This document shows, piece by piece, positions 4,298 through 34,341 of a stretch of DNA of 34,341 nt. Positions within the stretch are counted from its first letter, which is position 1. Every line of letters begins with the position of its first letter. The DNA is taken from IMG/VR virus record IMGVR_UViG_3300007734_000608, positions 1 to 34,341 of that record; one strand, 5' to 3'. The DNA comes from a virus. The notes under the pieces are model-generated. The model saw nothing but the letters and a program-made list of their open reading frames with translations. It ran no database searches and was not told the origin of the DNA. Position numbers and translations under genes: made by a program.

Positions 4298-4350
4298 AAA
4301 AGTCAATCTCATGGCAACTATCAATGAAACCCCAACTTAAAGGAATTTCA

Positions 4351-6492
4351 GTGCCCATCTTAACTGAAACACCCCTGCCAGATACATTTAGCCAGTCGCA
4401 GTCTGTCGCCTGCAAAATAGGCACTGTCGCGCCTGATGCAGTCTTCTGCACCTTTGCCCTACAGGGCAGTAAGAAAATCCCCTACAAGCGAAGCGGCCAA
4501 GGTGTGGCCCGTGACACTGACCCAACAGACCTTTACAACGCTGAAGACATCTGGGCCATGGAGTCATGCCCTCATGGCCAGTATTTTGGCCTGGTCCAGC
4601 AGCGCCCCATCATCAGCGCATCAGGAAACTTTCTGGTTTGCCTTGATGTGGACATGAAGCACGCAAGTGGACCCACCAATGTGGCCATCCAGCGCATGGC
4701 CAAGTACGTCAAACAAAACAAGATGCTGACCGAGGTCTCTGTCTCAGGCCGTGGCCGTCATGTCTTCTTATGGGTCTCACCACCCAAAGAAGCTGACCAG
4801 GTGCTACCCAAGTACAAGCTAGGCGGTGGCCAAGAGTTAGAAGTATTTGGCCTGCCAAACAGTGCCGGCAAGTCAGTGTTACTCAGTGGCAATGCGGTGG
4901 TCGGTGAATTCCAAGAGGCCGTGGACCTTTATGCTTTATTACAAGACTGGGGCATCATCGAGCAGCACCAGCTCCAAGAGCCAAAGCCTGCTGCACCACC
5001 CAGCCAATCATTTGACTTCACCCAATTAGGCTCAAGGATTGATGACAGCGATCTTGATCGCGCCATCAAGGCTTTGCACCATATTTCCCCAGACTGCGAC
5101 TATGAGCAGTGGATCGAACTGGGCCAAGCGCTGCATACAGAATTCGGGGAAGCAGGTCTCGGCCCATGGATGACATGGTCCATGGCTGGCCAGAAGTACC
5201 AAGGCACAAAAGACATTGAAGTCCACTGGAAGAGCTTTCACCAGGGCAAAGGCGTAGGGCTTGGCACACTCTTCAAACACGCCAAGGATTGTGGCTATGA
5301 GCCGCCAACCAAGCAGACCGAGCGCAAGTCAGCCGTGGAAGACTTTGCAGCCGTGATCAGTCAGGCCCAATCACCAGTCACAGAAGACGCGCCAGACCCG
5401 TCATGGCCAGAGCTTGCCTTAGACCTGACAAAGCTCAACTTCATCGACTACCTGATCGAAGGCTTCATGGCCCACAGCTTCTTTATCTTGGCCGGTCAGC
5501 CTGGCGTGGGTAAGACCACAGCGGTCCTGTCCATGTGCATGATCATGGCTGGGTTTAATGTGGAAGGCTGCGAGATACATTCAAAGACCAGGCGCAAGTC
5601 GATTATCGTGACTGAAGATAGTGACCAGATAATCCGAACATTATTCGCATATTCAAAGCATTACAAAATAAATAATCTGAATGACTGGTTTGTGGTTATT
5701 GATGCCAGAAGGTCTAATGTCAAAGACTTATTAAGGCTTGCCCATAATATCGAGCGCCACACTGTTAATGGCATTAAGCCATTATTAGTTTTAGACACGG
5801 CCAATGCCACCATGGATATTGATAACGAGAATGACAACTCAGAAGTTGGCAGCTTTATTGCCGCCATCAAGCAGACCATCTTCATTCAGCAAAAAGCCCC
5901 AGTCTGCATCCTGACCCACACAAACAAGACCATCAGCCGGCAAGACTCCGATGCCATGGCCCGTGGCGCTTCTGCCTTTACAGGTGACGCAACCCTGACA
6001 GGCGTGCTTTTCATGGATGAGGATAACCAGCGCTACCTAAAGCTGACCAAAACGCGCTACGAGCCACAATTCAGAGAGATCAAGTTCGACTCCATCACAT
6101 TTCCAGAAATAGTCATAACCCCAGCTGGTGATCTGCAAGAGATTATTTGCAGGGTGGCCATTCCAGCCATGTCGTCAGAACAAGACCGAATGGCCGCCAA
6201 GCAGTCCCAACAAGACAGTGCCAAAGAACAGCGCATCCAAGACAAGTGCGATGAGGTCTGCAACCATGTCCAGTCCATCATCAATGACAAAGGCAGCGTC
6301 ATCATGCGCAGAGGACCAGGCAGGCCCGTTGTGCCAAAAGAACTCCAAACCGCCTACCAACTAGACTGGACTGAGATATTCAGCAGCGTCAAAGGCTCAG
6401 ATGCAGGCTATATCCGCAAGCACATTGGCACGGCCATCTTCACCAGATTCGCGCCAAACGAGCCACTGTCAGGCTGGGTGAGACTCGCATGA
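4351..6492 (+). CDS. Primase-polymerase / RepA-like helicase fusion, replication initiator candidate
   Basis: A 713-residue protein. Residues about 25-200 form an archaeo-eukaryotic-type primase: metal-binding LDVDMK (99-104), SGRGRH (132-137) and QELEVFG (161-167). Residues about 232-315 match a PriCT_2 domain. Residues about 360-590 are a RepA/AAA_25-type hexameric helicase with Walker A GQPGVGKT (382-389), Walker B LLVLDTAN (478-485) and sensor-like THTNK (522-526). I chose GTG 4351 because AAAGGAA sits 5 bases upstream; ATG 4324 (9 residues longer) lacks a site. This layout is known from plasmids and prophage replicons. Iterons and DnaA boxes begin 6 bases after its stop, supporting a role in initiation. 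The stretch 5600-5830 is more AT-rich than the rest. Confidence 0.85.
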   Translation: MPILTETPLPDTFSQSQSVACKIGTVAPDAVFCTFALQGSKKIPYKRSGQGVARDTDPTDLYNAEDIWAMESCPHGQYFGLVQQRPIISASGNFLVCLDVDMKHASGPTNVAIQRMAKYVKQNKMLTEVSVSGRGRHVFLWVSPPKEADQVLPKYKLGGGQELEVFGLPNSAGKSVLLSGNAVVGEFQEAVDLYALLQDWGIIEQHQLQEPKPAAPPSQSFDFTQLGSRIDDSDLDRAIKALHHISPDCDYEQWIELGQALHTEFGEAGLGPWMTWSMAGQKYQGTKDIEVHWKSFHQGKGVGLGTLFKHAKDCGYEPPTKQTERKSAVEDFAAVISQAQSPVTEDAPDPSWPELALDLTKLNFIDYLIEGFMAHSFFILAGQPGVGKTTAVLSMCMIMAGFNVEGCEIHSKTRRKSIIVTEDSDQIIRTLFAYSKHYKINNLNDWFVVIDARRSNVKDLLRLAHNIERHTVNGIKPLLVLDTANATMDIDNENDNSEVGSFIAAIKQTIFIQQKAPVCILTHTNKTISRQDSDAMARGASAFTGDATLTGVLFMDEDNQRYLKLTKTRYEPQFREIKFDSITFPEIVITPAGDLQEIICRVAIPAMSSEQDRMAAKQSQQDSAKEQRIQDKCDEVCNHVQSIINDKGSVIMRRGPGRPVVPKELQTAYQLDWTEIFSSVKGSDAGYIRKHIGTAIFTRFAPNEPLSGWVRLA

Positions 6493-6497
6493 TCAGT

Positions 6498-6549
6498 CTA
6501 ATGCGGAAAGGCGGAACTAATACGGAACTAATACGGAATTCCGTATTAG
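6498..6549. repeat. Iteron cluster: four 11-base CTAATRCGGAA units, last two forming a palindrome
   Basis: Copies of CTAATRCGGAA lie at 6498-6508, 6517-6527, 6528-6538 (plus) and 6539-6549 (minus). The last two abut and make a perfect 22-base palindrome centred on an EcoRI-like GAATTC. The first copy is followed by AGGCGGAA, which is repeated after the copy at 6634. More copies lie at 6634-6644 (+), 6668-6678 (-) and 6779-6789 (+). Repeated sites right after a RepA-like gene resemble plasmid iterons; operator function is the alternative. Confidence 0.8.
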
Positions 6550-6567
6550 ACAATGGCAGGGATTGTT

Positions 6568-6601
6568 GGATAAGTAGGGTCGTTAGACCTACTTATCCAC
6601 A
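6568..6601. other. Hairpin with a DnaA box on its right arm
   Basis: GGATAAGTAGG (6568-6578) and CCTACTTATCC (6588-6598) form a perfect 11-base stem with a 9-base loop. The right arm runs into an exact DnaA box TTATCCACA at 6593-6601. No T-run follows. A structured site in the putative origin is a reasonable reading. Confidence 0.6.
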
Positions 6602-6630
6602 GACCAGTCACGGCTTGGAAGGTACTTCAG

Positions 6631-6681
6631 TTTCTAATGCGGAAAGGCGGAAAATTCCTTAAGGGCTTTCCGTATTAGAAA
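6631..6681. repeat. Long inverted iteron pair
   Basis: TTTCTAATGCGGAAAG (6631-6646) and CTTTCCGTATTAGAAA (6666-6681) are inverted with a single mismatch across 16 bases. The arms contain the 11-base iteron unit (6634-6644 and 6668-6678). The intervening 19 bases include AATTCCTTAAGG. This pair belongs to the same repeat family as 6498-6549. Confidence 0.75.
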
Positions 6682-6712
6682 CGAGCATTAGATGGTCCAA
6701 CACAAAGGAAAG

Positions 6713-6732
6713 TTATGCACAGGTTATCCACA
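6713..6732 (+). other. Two adjacent DnaA boxes
   Basis: TTATGCACA (6713-6721) and TTATCCACA (6724-6732) are exact matches to the bacterial DnaA box TTATNCACA, spaced by two bases and overlapping the start of the next gene. With the box at 6593-6601 they form the first DnaA-box group beside the iterons. Confidence 0.75.
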
Positions 6733-7035
6733 ATTATTGAAATGGTCGAAGATGAGCGCGTTTTCTGCCATCAATGCGCTAATGCGGAAATGGTAGAGCA
6801 GCGCCAGTCGATGCCAGCAGAGCAGATGGAAAGGCACAGGAAGGTCAACGCAAAGCCACTACAGTGGATGTTTGACCAGGCAAAGATTAAAGGTGGATGG
6901 GCAACCATCACATGGTCCGAACACCAGTGCGCGAAAACCGGACTGGCAGCCTTTCCGACCGATGTCAAACACCGATGCCATATGTTCCAGACCAAAGCCT
7001 CGGCAGTAGAATCCGAGGAATGGTGGTTGACTTAA
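6715..7035 (+). CDS. Cys-rich small protein, possible zinc binder
   Basis: A 106-residue protein with two Cys clusters: FCHQCANAEM (residues 18-27) near the N-terminus and CAKTGLAAFPTDVKHRCHMF near the C-terminus. The CxxC...C...CxxF spacing resembles small metal-binding proteins common in phages, but I know no assigned function. A strong ribosome site (AAAGGAAAG) precedes ATG 6715. The start codon itself lies inside a DnaA box, and an iteron copy lies at codons 22-25, so the gene's 5' end is part of the putative origin. It overlaps the following nuclease gene by 16 bases. Confidence 0.6.
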   Translation: MHRLSTIIEMVEDERVFCHQCANAEMVEQRQSMPAEQMERHRKVNAKPLQWMFDQAKIKGGWATITWSEHQCAKTGLAAFPTDVKHRCHMFQTKASAVESEEWWLT

Positions 7036-7916: not shown

Positions 7917-8131
7917 AGTGGATAACTCGTTATCCACAGAATTAAGTGCATTAAAGTATTACAAGCCTAGTTATGCACAGGAATCTGTGGATAAGGTTGG
8001 CCAAAATCCGTGGATAACCCCGCGGTGGCCGGCTGGCGGTCGGTGGCCGCGACCCCCCCCTTGGCCGGCTTGGCGGGGGCGACTGTGGCGGCACTAAACA
8101 CCTACAAAAAAAATTTTTTAAAAAAATTTTG
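7917..8131. other. oriC-like region: DnaA-box cluster, GC-rich spacer and AT-rich block
   Basis: This gene-free stretch after the small terminase holds DnaA boxes at 7930-7938 (TTATCCACA), 7971-7979 (TTATGCACA), 7986-7994 (TGTGGATAA, minus) and two 8-of-9 matches at 7917-7925 and 8009-8017 (both minus). GTGGATAAC (7918-7926) and GTTATCCAC (7929-7937) form a perfect inverted pair. A GC-rich stretch follows (about 8020-8095), then a run of about 27 A/T bases (8105-8130), like a DNA-unwinding element. This is the classical order of parts of a bacterial chromosomal origin. Function is inferred. Confidence 0.7.
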
Positions 8132-16127: not shown

Positions 16128-17675
16128 ATGGCTATTGTTAGCAATACATTCCTGACTTACTCTGCAAAGGGTATTCGGGAAGATTTGAGCAATGTGATTA
16201 CAAACATTGCTCCAGAAGAGACACCTTTCATGTCCAATATTGGCCGTGAAAATGTGTCTAACACTCTGTTTGAATTCCAAACAGATACACTTGCCGCAGC
16301 TGCTGCCAATGCACAGCTTGAGGGCGATGATGTCGGCACTTTTGATTCAGTGGTTGCCACTGTTCGAGTGCAGAACTACTGCCAAATCAGCCGCAAGACT
16401 ATTGTCTTGTCAGCGACTGAAGAGGTGGTAAACAAGGCAGGCCGTAGAAGCGAATTGGCGTTAACTTTGCATTGAAGCGCCCTTATTCGGTAACGAATAA
16501 AGAAAAACTAGGTGAATTGCTGGAAACCCTTGAGAGCTTGATACACCACAACATAGCCCGAAAGAGCAAGTGTGAAGGTCCAAAAAGAATCAAGATTAGG
16601 CAATCAGCAGCCAAGCGCCTTAAAAGGTGAAGGTTCAACGACTAGGGAGTAATCCCGTAGGACTAAGTGGTCCGAAGTGCCTAGCCCCAGAAATGGGTGA
16701 AGATATAGTCTGATCTTGCATGAGAGTGCAAGCCTCGAAAGAGGGTCAGGAAGATAACGAGTCCTGGCAAACAAATATGACCAAATTGCAAAGCGTGGCG
16801 CTGAAATTAAGCGCGATCAAGAATTCTCCATGCTCAATGGCGCTATCGCCAATGCTGGTGATTCTACAACTGCCCGTACTACGGCCTCTTTGGGCGCGTT
16901 TGTGAAAACAAACACCGACAAAGGCACTAGCGGTGTTGATCCATCTTACACAACGCTGCCAAACAGCGCCCGTACAGATGGCACAGTTCGCACATTTACT
17001 GAGACCATTCTTAAGAATGTGATTCAGAAGGTGTGGACATCTGGTGGTACACCTAAGATTTTGATGTGCGGTCCTGTTAACAAGCAGCGCGTGTCAGGTT
17101 TCTCTGGTATTGCTTCTAGCCGTTTCAACATTGATGGAGGTGCAAAGCCTGCAACCCTAGTGGGTGCGGTCGATATCTACGTTAACTAATGGCGTCGATA
17201 AGCAGTAATGCTTATTTGTAACTAGGTGAATTCGGTGAACCTCCTAACTGTCAAGCCGGACAAAGGACAATACCGAGCCAAGCCGAGAAATCGGAAGGTG
17301 TAACGACTAGGGGTGGGAACCCCGTAGGACCAAGCGGTCCGAAGTGCCTAGCCCCTCATAATGAGGGTGAAGAGATAGTCTGATCTACCAGGTAACTGGT
17401 AGCCTCGAAAGAGGGATGAGAAGGTAGCGAGTCTCATTTAACATTGATGCAGTGATTTCGGCAATGTGCAAGTGATTGCAAACCGCTTCCAGCGTGAGCG
17501 CGATGCGTTTGTGCTTGACCCTGACTACGCTAAGATGACTGTGCTGCGCCCTTACCAGCAAATCGAATTGGCGAAGACAGGCGATGCCGATAAACGACTT
17601 TTGATCGTCGAATTTGGATTGAAAGTGTTGGCGGAAAATGCCCATGGTCTGGCAGCAGACTTGGTTACTTCTTAA
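16128..17675 (+). CDS. Major capsid protein, split by two group I introns
   Basis: The gene is in three exons: 16128-16461, 16780-17182 and 17450-17675. Joined, they give a 320-residue protein of the SU10/DUF5309 capsid type (HK97-like fold). Exon 1 ends in SELA; splicing joins it to YQIAKRGAEIKRD, exactly the family's expected sequence. Exon 2 ends VDIYV and joins SDFGNVQVIANRF. Both junctions restore the frame, and both intron starts follow a U that pairs with G in the intron guide. Unspliced, exon 1 reads into a stop at 16475. A strong ribosome site (GAGGAAATT) precedes ATG 16128. Read separately, the exons would give three unrelated short ORFs. Confidence 0.9.
16462..16779 (+). ncRNA. Group I intron 1 in the major capsid gene
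   Basis: A 318-base intron without an open reading frame for a homing endonuclease. P1 pairs exon GGCGU with intron GCGCC (U-G at the splice site). A P2-like hairpin TTATTCG-GTAA-CGAATAA follows. The core has ACGACTAGGG, hairpins GGGA/UCCC and GGACU/GGUCC, CCGAAGTGCCTAG, and AAGATATAGTCTGATC (P7 side), as in T4 td-type introns. Hairpins CTTGCA/TGCAAG, CCTCGAAAGAGG and CAGGA/TCCTG lie near the 3' end. It ends in ATG, with the terminal G as omega-G. Confidence 0.9.
17183..17449 (+). ncRNA. Group I intron 2 in the major capsid gene
   Basis: A 267-base intron without an endonuclease frame, closely related to intron 1. P1 pairs exon AUCUACGU with intron GCGUCGAU (one mismatch, terminal U-G). The P2-like hairpin is ATAAGCA-GTAA-TGCTTAT. 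The core repeats ACGACTAGGGG, now with GGGG/CCCC and GGACC/GGUCC stems, compared with GGGA/UCCC and GGACU/GGUCC in intron 1. CCGAAGTGCCTAGCCCC and AGAGATAGTCTGATC are nearly identical. The 3' end shows CTACCAG/CTGGTAG, CCTCGAAAGAGG and ATGAGA/TCTCAT, then ends GATG. Confidence 0.9.
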
Positions 17676-33990: not shown

Positions 33991-34341
33991 TCACTGACCA
34001 AAAAACGCGGCCACAAGTGGGTCGCGTTTCACGACCCGTCTTTTCTGTCTACGTCTGGCAGCGTCAAAGTCTTTGTCGTCTGCACTCATCTTCTCGCGGT
34101 GTTTCTTGATGCGCTCAGAGCCTGGCACTGGCCCAGGCGCTATGGCATCTTCACCATCCCCCCAAGACCACAGAGGCCGCCACTGGCCATTTGCATGGAC
34201 CTTGGTGAATCCTGAGATGTGGACCAGATCATGGCGGTGCAAGTCAAACAAGATTCGCGCTGCACTGCGCCTGGCACAAAAGCACAGCTTGGCCAAGTCC
34301 ACATCAGACAGATTGCCTTTCTTTTGTAGTGCCGCCTCAAT
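33991..34341 (-). CDS. Winged-helix-like DNA-binding protein, right copy (partial)
   Basis: The minus-strand frame runs from the window edge to TGA at 33991 and encodes about 116 residues, nearly identical to the left copy (99-485): one Glu/Asp change (WSWGDGE against WSWGEGE) and a final Gln instead of Gly. The N-terminal about 12 residues lie beyond the window. It is convergent with the ejection-protein gene, separated by no spacer, and shares the embedded terminator of the left copy. Confidence 0.85.
   Translation of the reverse strand: MEAALQKKGNLSDVDLAKLCFCARRSAARILFDLHRHDLVHISGFTKVHANGQWRPLWSWGDGEDAIAPGPVPGSERIKKHREKMSADDKDFDAARRRQKRRVVKRDPLVAAFFGQ
33991..34341. repeat. Right copy of the diverged terminal direct repeat
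   Basis: Matches 99-449 with no gap (offset 33892). The two flanks differ: here the repeat abuts the end of the ejection-protein gene; at the left end it abuts a leftward partial gene. The copy is cut by the window end. Confidence 0.9.
34000..34029 (-). terminator. Terminator in the right copy, between convergent genes
   Basis: The same hairpin as at 108-137: arms AAACGCG and CGCGTTT around an inner GTGG/CCAC pairing, followed on the minus strand by six Ts (34005-34000). Here it stands between two convergent genes and would stop leftward transcripts before they enter the ejection-protein gene. Confidence 0.6.

Follow-up and report, generated by a model that had tools for sequence, protein, structure and literature searches.

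A probable iteron-type replication origin directly downstream of a primase-helicase gene in a tailed phage

A conserved array of short repeats directly downstream of a primase-helicase gene is very likely where a tailed phage initiates replication, and comparison of related loci suggests that it is read by that same primase-helicase in the manner proposed below. The array lies in the viral record IMGVR_UViG_3300007734_000608, analyzed over its full 34,341 nt (herein referred to as the window), a genome that carries its own portal, TerS, and TerL genes. The original prediction, made from the letters of this DNA, was of a plasmid-like, iteron-type origin in a virus. An iteron-type origin is supported by conservation of the array together with its DnaA boxes and its location, by a GC-skew minimum, and by the co-change of the repeat unit with the C-terminal domain of the upstream protein; the plasmid likeness holds in that iterons and DnaA boxes occur together as in iteron plasmids, but the closest precedent is the Rep-ori module of SaPIs and PICIs.

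In the proposed mechanism, the C-terminal domain of the initiator (approximately residues 590–722) would bind nine 10-bp sites, and binding there would assemble and self-load the hexameric helicase, after which the initiator's own primase domain would prime synthesis; host DnaA, on three boxes between and beside the site clusters, may assist in opening the DNA or giving it shape. That the helicase loads itself and the PrimPol does the priming is suggested by analogy with SaPI Rep and Cch2 (PMC7581432), pRN1 (PMC4234260), and the PrimPols of mobile elements (PMC5862659), whereas a contribution of DnaA is suggested by the conserved boxes together with the examples of RK2 and P1 (PMC4980987). From the sequence features described here, we infer that replication starts at the array.

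The initiator gene and the adjoining array

The initiator gene (4324–6492, plus strand) encodes a protein of 722 amino acids with the predicted order AEP PrimPol, PriCT_2, RepA/DnaB-like RecA-fold helicase, and C-terminal domain. Its earlier description as a primase-PriCT_2-RepA-like helicase was borne out by Pfam, which matched PriCT_2 and a RecA-fold ATPase (AAA_25), and by Foldseek, which matched NrS-1 PrimPol and RSF1010 RepA; a search of the whole protein against PDB sequences returned no match. PriCT_2 was found in all 17 rows of the primase-helicase set. The AF2 model of the whole protein averages pLDDT 69, with low values in the helicase part, and matches the phage NrS-1 PrimPol over the AEP catalytic domain (E 1.7e-9), and D108, D110, S141, G142, and H146 of this domain are invariant across the 17 rows. 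DnaB and RSF1010 RepA (1g8y, 1nlf) are matched at ranks below NrS-1, in a low-confidence part of the model.

The C-terminal domain, our proposed iteron reader (6091–6489, plus strand), is supported by its co-change with iteron class and by its model: when the last 134 residues were modeled separately, pLDDT rose to 89, and the model begins with two strands, continues through a 38-residue helix and a third strand, and ends in two shorter helices followed by a last strand. This topology is compatible with a winged helix, and the structure matches are weak (among them chains of CUL4B, TAF1, CprK, and CodY, Z 2.4–4.6; best VIA match Z 4.6). The matched stretches in these chains we take to be winged helices. 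Foldseek gave the C-terminal model zero matches at E below 0.001, and no Pfam family matched the domain; because the fold search yielded no confident relative, we regard the winged-helix fold of the model as probable.

The seven predicted copies of CTAATRCGGAA are all exact (6498, 6517, 6528, 6539 reverse, 6634, 6668 reverse, and 6779), and the 34-kb window holds no further site even when one mismatch is allowed. Seven copies were reached in none of 100 dinucleotide shuffles (mean 0.52), and a blind search of 360 bases, spanning the gene end and the sequence past it, returned AATGCGGAA as the commonest 9-mer, with nine copies against 2–3 in shuffles. The true count is indeed nine, as two degenerate copies, AAAGGCGGAA at 6507–6516 and 6643–6652, follow sites 1 and 6 with an 8-bp offset.

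The nine sites fall into a cluster of five, a cluster of three, and one extra in the next gene. Site 1 (TAATGCGGAA, 6499–6508, plus) starts 6 bases past the stop codon of the primase-helicase gene and is followed by the degenerate site 2 (6507–6516, plus), site 3 (TAATACGGAA, 6518–6527, plus), and sites 4 and 5 (TAATACGGAA, 6529–6538, plus, and 6539–6548, minus), the left and right halves of the predicted 22-base palindrome, which is perfect at 6528–6549. The second cluster comprises site 6 (TAATGCGGAA, 6635–6644, plus), the degenerate site 7 (6643–6652, plus), and site 8 (TAATACGGAA, 6668–6677, minus); an inverted pair is present here as predicted but measures 17 nt with one mismatch (6630–6646/6666–6682) rather than 16. 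Site 9 (TAATGCGGAA, 6780–6789, plus) lies within the next ORF. Site 7 was assigned from the layout in relatives, site 2 from the full unit that occupies its position in classes B–E (below), and all others from the repeat search and the layout in relatives. The next ORF (6715–7035, plus) is small and Cys-rich, gave no match in a Pfam scan, and starts inside the putative origin, where it overlaps site 9 and DnaA boxes 2 and 3.

Elsewhere in the window, two group I introns (16452–16732 and 17173–17402; Rfam RF00028, 90 and 79 bits), 79% alike across 140 nt, apparently split one head-region gene (ORFs 16128–16475, 16830–17189, and 17466–17675), and no endonuclease ORF was seen inside either. The window ends carry a 344-bp direct repeat of 96% identity (106–449 and 33998–34341), which probably means that the genome is circular and was closed with sequence of a slightly divergent co-assembled strain, or that a gene is duplicated.

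A fixed layout with changing repeat units

The origin reading is borne out and extended by approximately 110 related viral loci, 80 found by a scan with the window protein and about 35 more, forming a second group, by a scan with the MW202879 homologue. A scan of genome contigs added a single relative, L151 (CAINTF010000009.1), which carries a fifth iteron class. Its contig had been binned with an Acidimicrobium MAG but is probably a misplaced phage contig and therefore gives no host. The array stands directly past the gene in every inspected locus that covers the region. Conservation of the 11-base unit in relatives had been put forward as a check, and although the array, the DnaA boxes, and their position are kept in all inspected loci, the unit itself differs by class: TAATRCGGAA in class A (the window), TAATGCGGTA in class B, TAAASCGGTA in class C, TCGRRGATAC in class D, and TAATMCGGTW in class E.

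The geometry is shared across these classes, with offsets from site 1 of 0, +8, +19, +30, +40 (inverted), approximately +137, +145, approximately +170 (inverted), and +281 to +295. The first cluster thus consists of a pair 8 bp apart, two units at 11-bp steps, and an abutting inverted copy; a spacer of approximately 90 bp holds an inverted repeat and DnaA box 1; and the second part consists of another such pair, one or two inverted units, the DnaA box or boxes, and a final site within the next ORF. In class D, the second cluster lacks the second copy and has a second inverted copy. Nearly all sites in any one locus share one class; in class B, sites 1–4, 6, and 7 are TAATGCGGTA in 9/9 loci. 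Exceptions include the class-C-like eighth site of L045 and the mixed units of L085 and L110 in class D. In L085, L105, and L110, first-cluster units are of GGGAC, GCGAC, or GGTGG types and the second cluster is mostly GATAC, so that a single array is of mixed specificity. L026 pairs a class-B array with a class-A ninth site in the next ORF, approximately 290–310 bases past the rep gene, which marks a recombination breakpoint within the origin region.

Five phages and one plasmid were compared as distant PriCT_2 relatives. Pseudomonas phage Torfinnsbu has a 6-copy array 3′ of its primase gene, Acjo_20 and phiHSIC have 5–6-copy arrays 5′ of theirs, and the other three have no array by the gene; DnaA boxes were found near the gene in none of the six. 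The exact layout is therefore limited to the present group. The arrays of Acjo_20, phiHSIC, and Torfinnsbu advance in 8–9 bp steps and, whether 5′ or 3′ of the gene, qualify as candidate iterons.

The three predicted DnaA boxes are likewise exact, as found by box search: box 1 (TTATCCACA, 6593–6601, plus), supported by relatives and by box density across loci, box 2 (TTATGCACA, 6713–6721, plus), and box 3 (TTATCCACA, 6724–6732, plus), the latter two supported by relatives. Box 2 provides the ATG of the ORF at 6715–7035. In class A–C loci, boxes occur at 9.3 per kb in the 320 bases past the gene and at 0.02 per kb elsewhere when a second cluster (7930–8018) is set aside, a more than 400-fold difference; in class D, the values are 7.9 and 0.004 per kb. 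These conserved boxes are what suggests a role of host DnaA in the origin.

Box 1 lies on the right arm of a conserved inverted repeat between the iteron clusters (6567–6599). A hairpin carrying a DnaA box had been noted here with 11-base arms, and the overlap with box 1 holds, but the arms are 12 bp (6567–6578/6588–6599) around a 9-nt loop. Pairing is kept despite two-sided changes at 5/14 pairs, a level reached in 0/500 shuffles; evidence for a folded strand is moderate because most of these changes are one G-C to A-U change common to class B and L151. A terminator was rejected, as the hairpin is without a T-run or terminator-like site. In pRN1, a stem-loop 3′ of the replication gene is required (PMC4234260), and the inverted repeat here may, speculatively, serve strand opening or priming.

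Cumulative GC skew, another proposed check, is lowest in the window at 6466, 26 bases before the gene end. Across relatives, mean skew passes from −0.04 in the 500 bases before the gene end to +0.11 in the 500 after in A–C loci, and from −0.04 to +0.14 in D loci; the sign flips at the gene end in all groups, although the flanking genes share one direction.

These features bear on three other readings of the array. That the repeats are operators, through which a regulator (perhaps the initiator itself) controls downstream transcription while replication starts elsewhere, would suit an array that stands between two genes, touches the start of the next ORF, and contains operator-like inverted pairs; however, a promoter-like site was not found within 6300–6800, and two multi-site clusters with conserved DnaA boxes at a GC-skew minimum would be unusual for an operator, and we think this account very unlikely. 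A similarly small chance attaches to the idea that the true origin is a second DnaA cluster, with the iterons as a control or incompatibility element. This cluster, absent from the original prediction, has exact boxes at 7930, 7971, and 7986 (reverse) and two degenerate ones; its region (7930–8130), between TerS and the next genes, runs from the boxes into a GC-rich stretch and an A/T-rich tract. It is kept in most class A–C loci but absent in class D, the skew flips at the end of the rep gene rather than at +1450, and its place adjoining TerS would equally suit a packaging site or late promoter. The cluster could be a second origin, a DnaA-controlled promoter, or a packaging site, and at 7930–8018 it could take part alongside the main array. 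Finally, repeats in both orientations within one intergenic region, with terminase genes 0.9 kb and more downstream, might recall a centromere-like partition site or a packaging site, yet the candidate reader domain is fused to a primase and helicase and the array has DnaA boxes and a skew minimum, which leaves this account extremely improbable.

Coupling of unit class to the C-terminal domain

Of the parts of the initiator, the C-terminal domain is the one that follows the unit class. We counted the fewest class changes on the tree of each part for 78 loci (A 34, B 9, and C 35). The tree of C-terminal residues 615–722 needs 2, the minimum for three classes, compared with 5–8 for the helicase part and 19–24 for the primase part; neighboring genes need 17 (SSB), 21 (SNF2), 19 (exonuclease), 18 (VRR-NUC), and 16 (TerS), the small ORF past the array needs 4, and shuffled class labels average 24–32. 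Sliding windows show steps near residues 300–350 and between about 540 and 600, and primase, helicase, and C-terminus plus origin therefore act as three exchangeable blocks. Some class A and class B proteins are as much as 97% identical across residues 1–600, whereas no A–B pair exceeds 56% in the C-terminus. The class D protein is, as a whole, a lineage of its own (about 52% identity), and hence class D attests the conserved layout and no independent switch.

Such coupling is no proof of binding, because linkage alone also holds neighboring DNA together. The class and the C-terminus might have hitch-hiked in one recombining block while another protein reads the iterons: the C-terminal domain adjoins site 1, and class changes grow with distance (2, then 4–8, then 16–24). 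We nevertheless consider this unlikely. All sites switch to the same new sequence with their spacing kept, which needs a reader; among the genes compared, none tracks class so well; and SaPI Rep and Cch2 are established cases of reading by a C-terminal domain (PMC7581432). That separated sites in both orientations change together to one sequence points to a shared reader, and not linkage, as the explanation, and the comparison strongly supports a predicted binding of the iteron sites by the C-terminal domain of the primase-helicase.

Known systems and the meaning of the module

In SaPI Rep and SCCmec Cch2, a C-terminal domain binds iterons that lie 3′ of the protein's own gene (PMC7581432, citing Ubeda et al. 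2007 for SaPI), and the origins of PICIs contain two sets of iterons 3′ of rep (PMC6092414). The present module shares with SaPI/PICI Rep-ori and Cch2 an initiator helicase, sometimes primase-fused, with iterons directly 3′ of its own gene, and with SaPI/PICI Rep-ori the two iteron sets (here five and three sites plus one); C-terminal iteron reading is suggested here by exact co-change with class. It differs in its RepA/DnaB-like RecA-fold helicase, compared with the DUF927 or D5 type of SaPI/PICI/Cch2, in its three conserved DnaA boxes, in a spacer that is 50–57% AT and thus not AT-rich as in PICIs, and in its carrier, a phage whose genome includes head and packaging genes, rather than a helper-dependent satellite. 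The alpha protein of phage P4 has a helicase of another class, with ori and crr at separate places, whereas the present origin is a single compact array that includes DnaA boxes. As in the present case, primase, helicase, and origin recognition are combined in one polypeptide (P4 is mentioned in PMC6092414). Iteron plasmids such as RK2, P1, F, and pSC101 (PMC4980987) similarly unite iterons and DnaA boxes in one origin. However, their Rep is a winged-helix initiator that uses host DnaB, whereas the initiator here is itself primase and helicase, and their origins have an AT-rich DUE by the iterons, which was not found here (the highest 40-bp window in 6400–6850 is 65% AT). RSF1010 resembles the present system in its RepA-type hexameric helicase fold, its iterons, and the inverted repeats near them. 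Its functions are divided among three proteins (RepA/RepB′/RepC), of which RepC is the iteron binder, whereas here they are fused in one; no separate RepC-like initiator was found among the neighboring genes scanned. The same domain order occurs in PrimPol-PV1 AEP proteins, which have PriCT, RepA, and a C-terminal WH proposed as a possible origin recognizer (PMC5862659); that paper gives no cognate origin, whereas the present comparison supplies the sites and shows that they change jointly with the domain.

Our literature searches found no report of this origin. What is new is a putative Rep-ori module carried by a tailed phage that has head and packaging genes of its own; its helicase is of RepA type, its three DnaA boxes are conserved, and five natural specificity classes share its geometry. 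Tentatively, and as a possibility we would not yet favor, these phages may trade the C-terminal domain plus origin as a cassette, like an incompatibility type, with competition during co-infection or theft by satellites favoring new iteron specificities. If so, close relatives would replicate from mutually blind origins of unchanged geometry, and the set of loci would amount to a code, provided by nature, for how a primase-helicase initiator recognizes its sites. Hardly any uncultured phage has a known origin; here, sequence is enough to name an origin, the domain that likely reads it, and five classes, and matched and mismatched pairs make both DNA recognition by a fused initiator and the exchange of origin specificity as a cassette directly testable.
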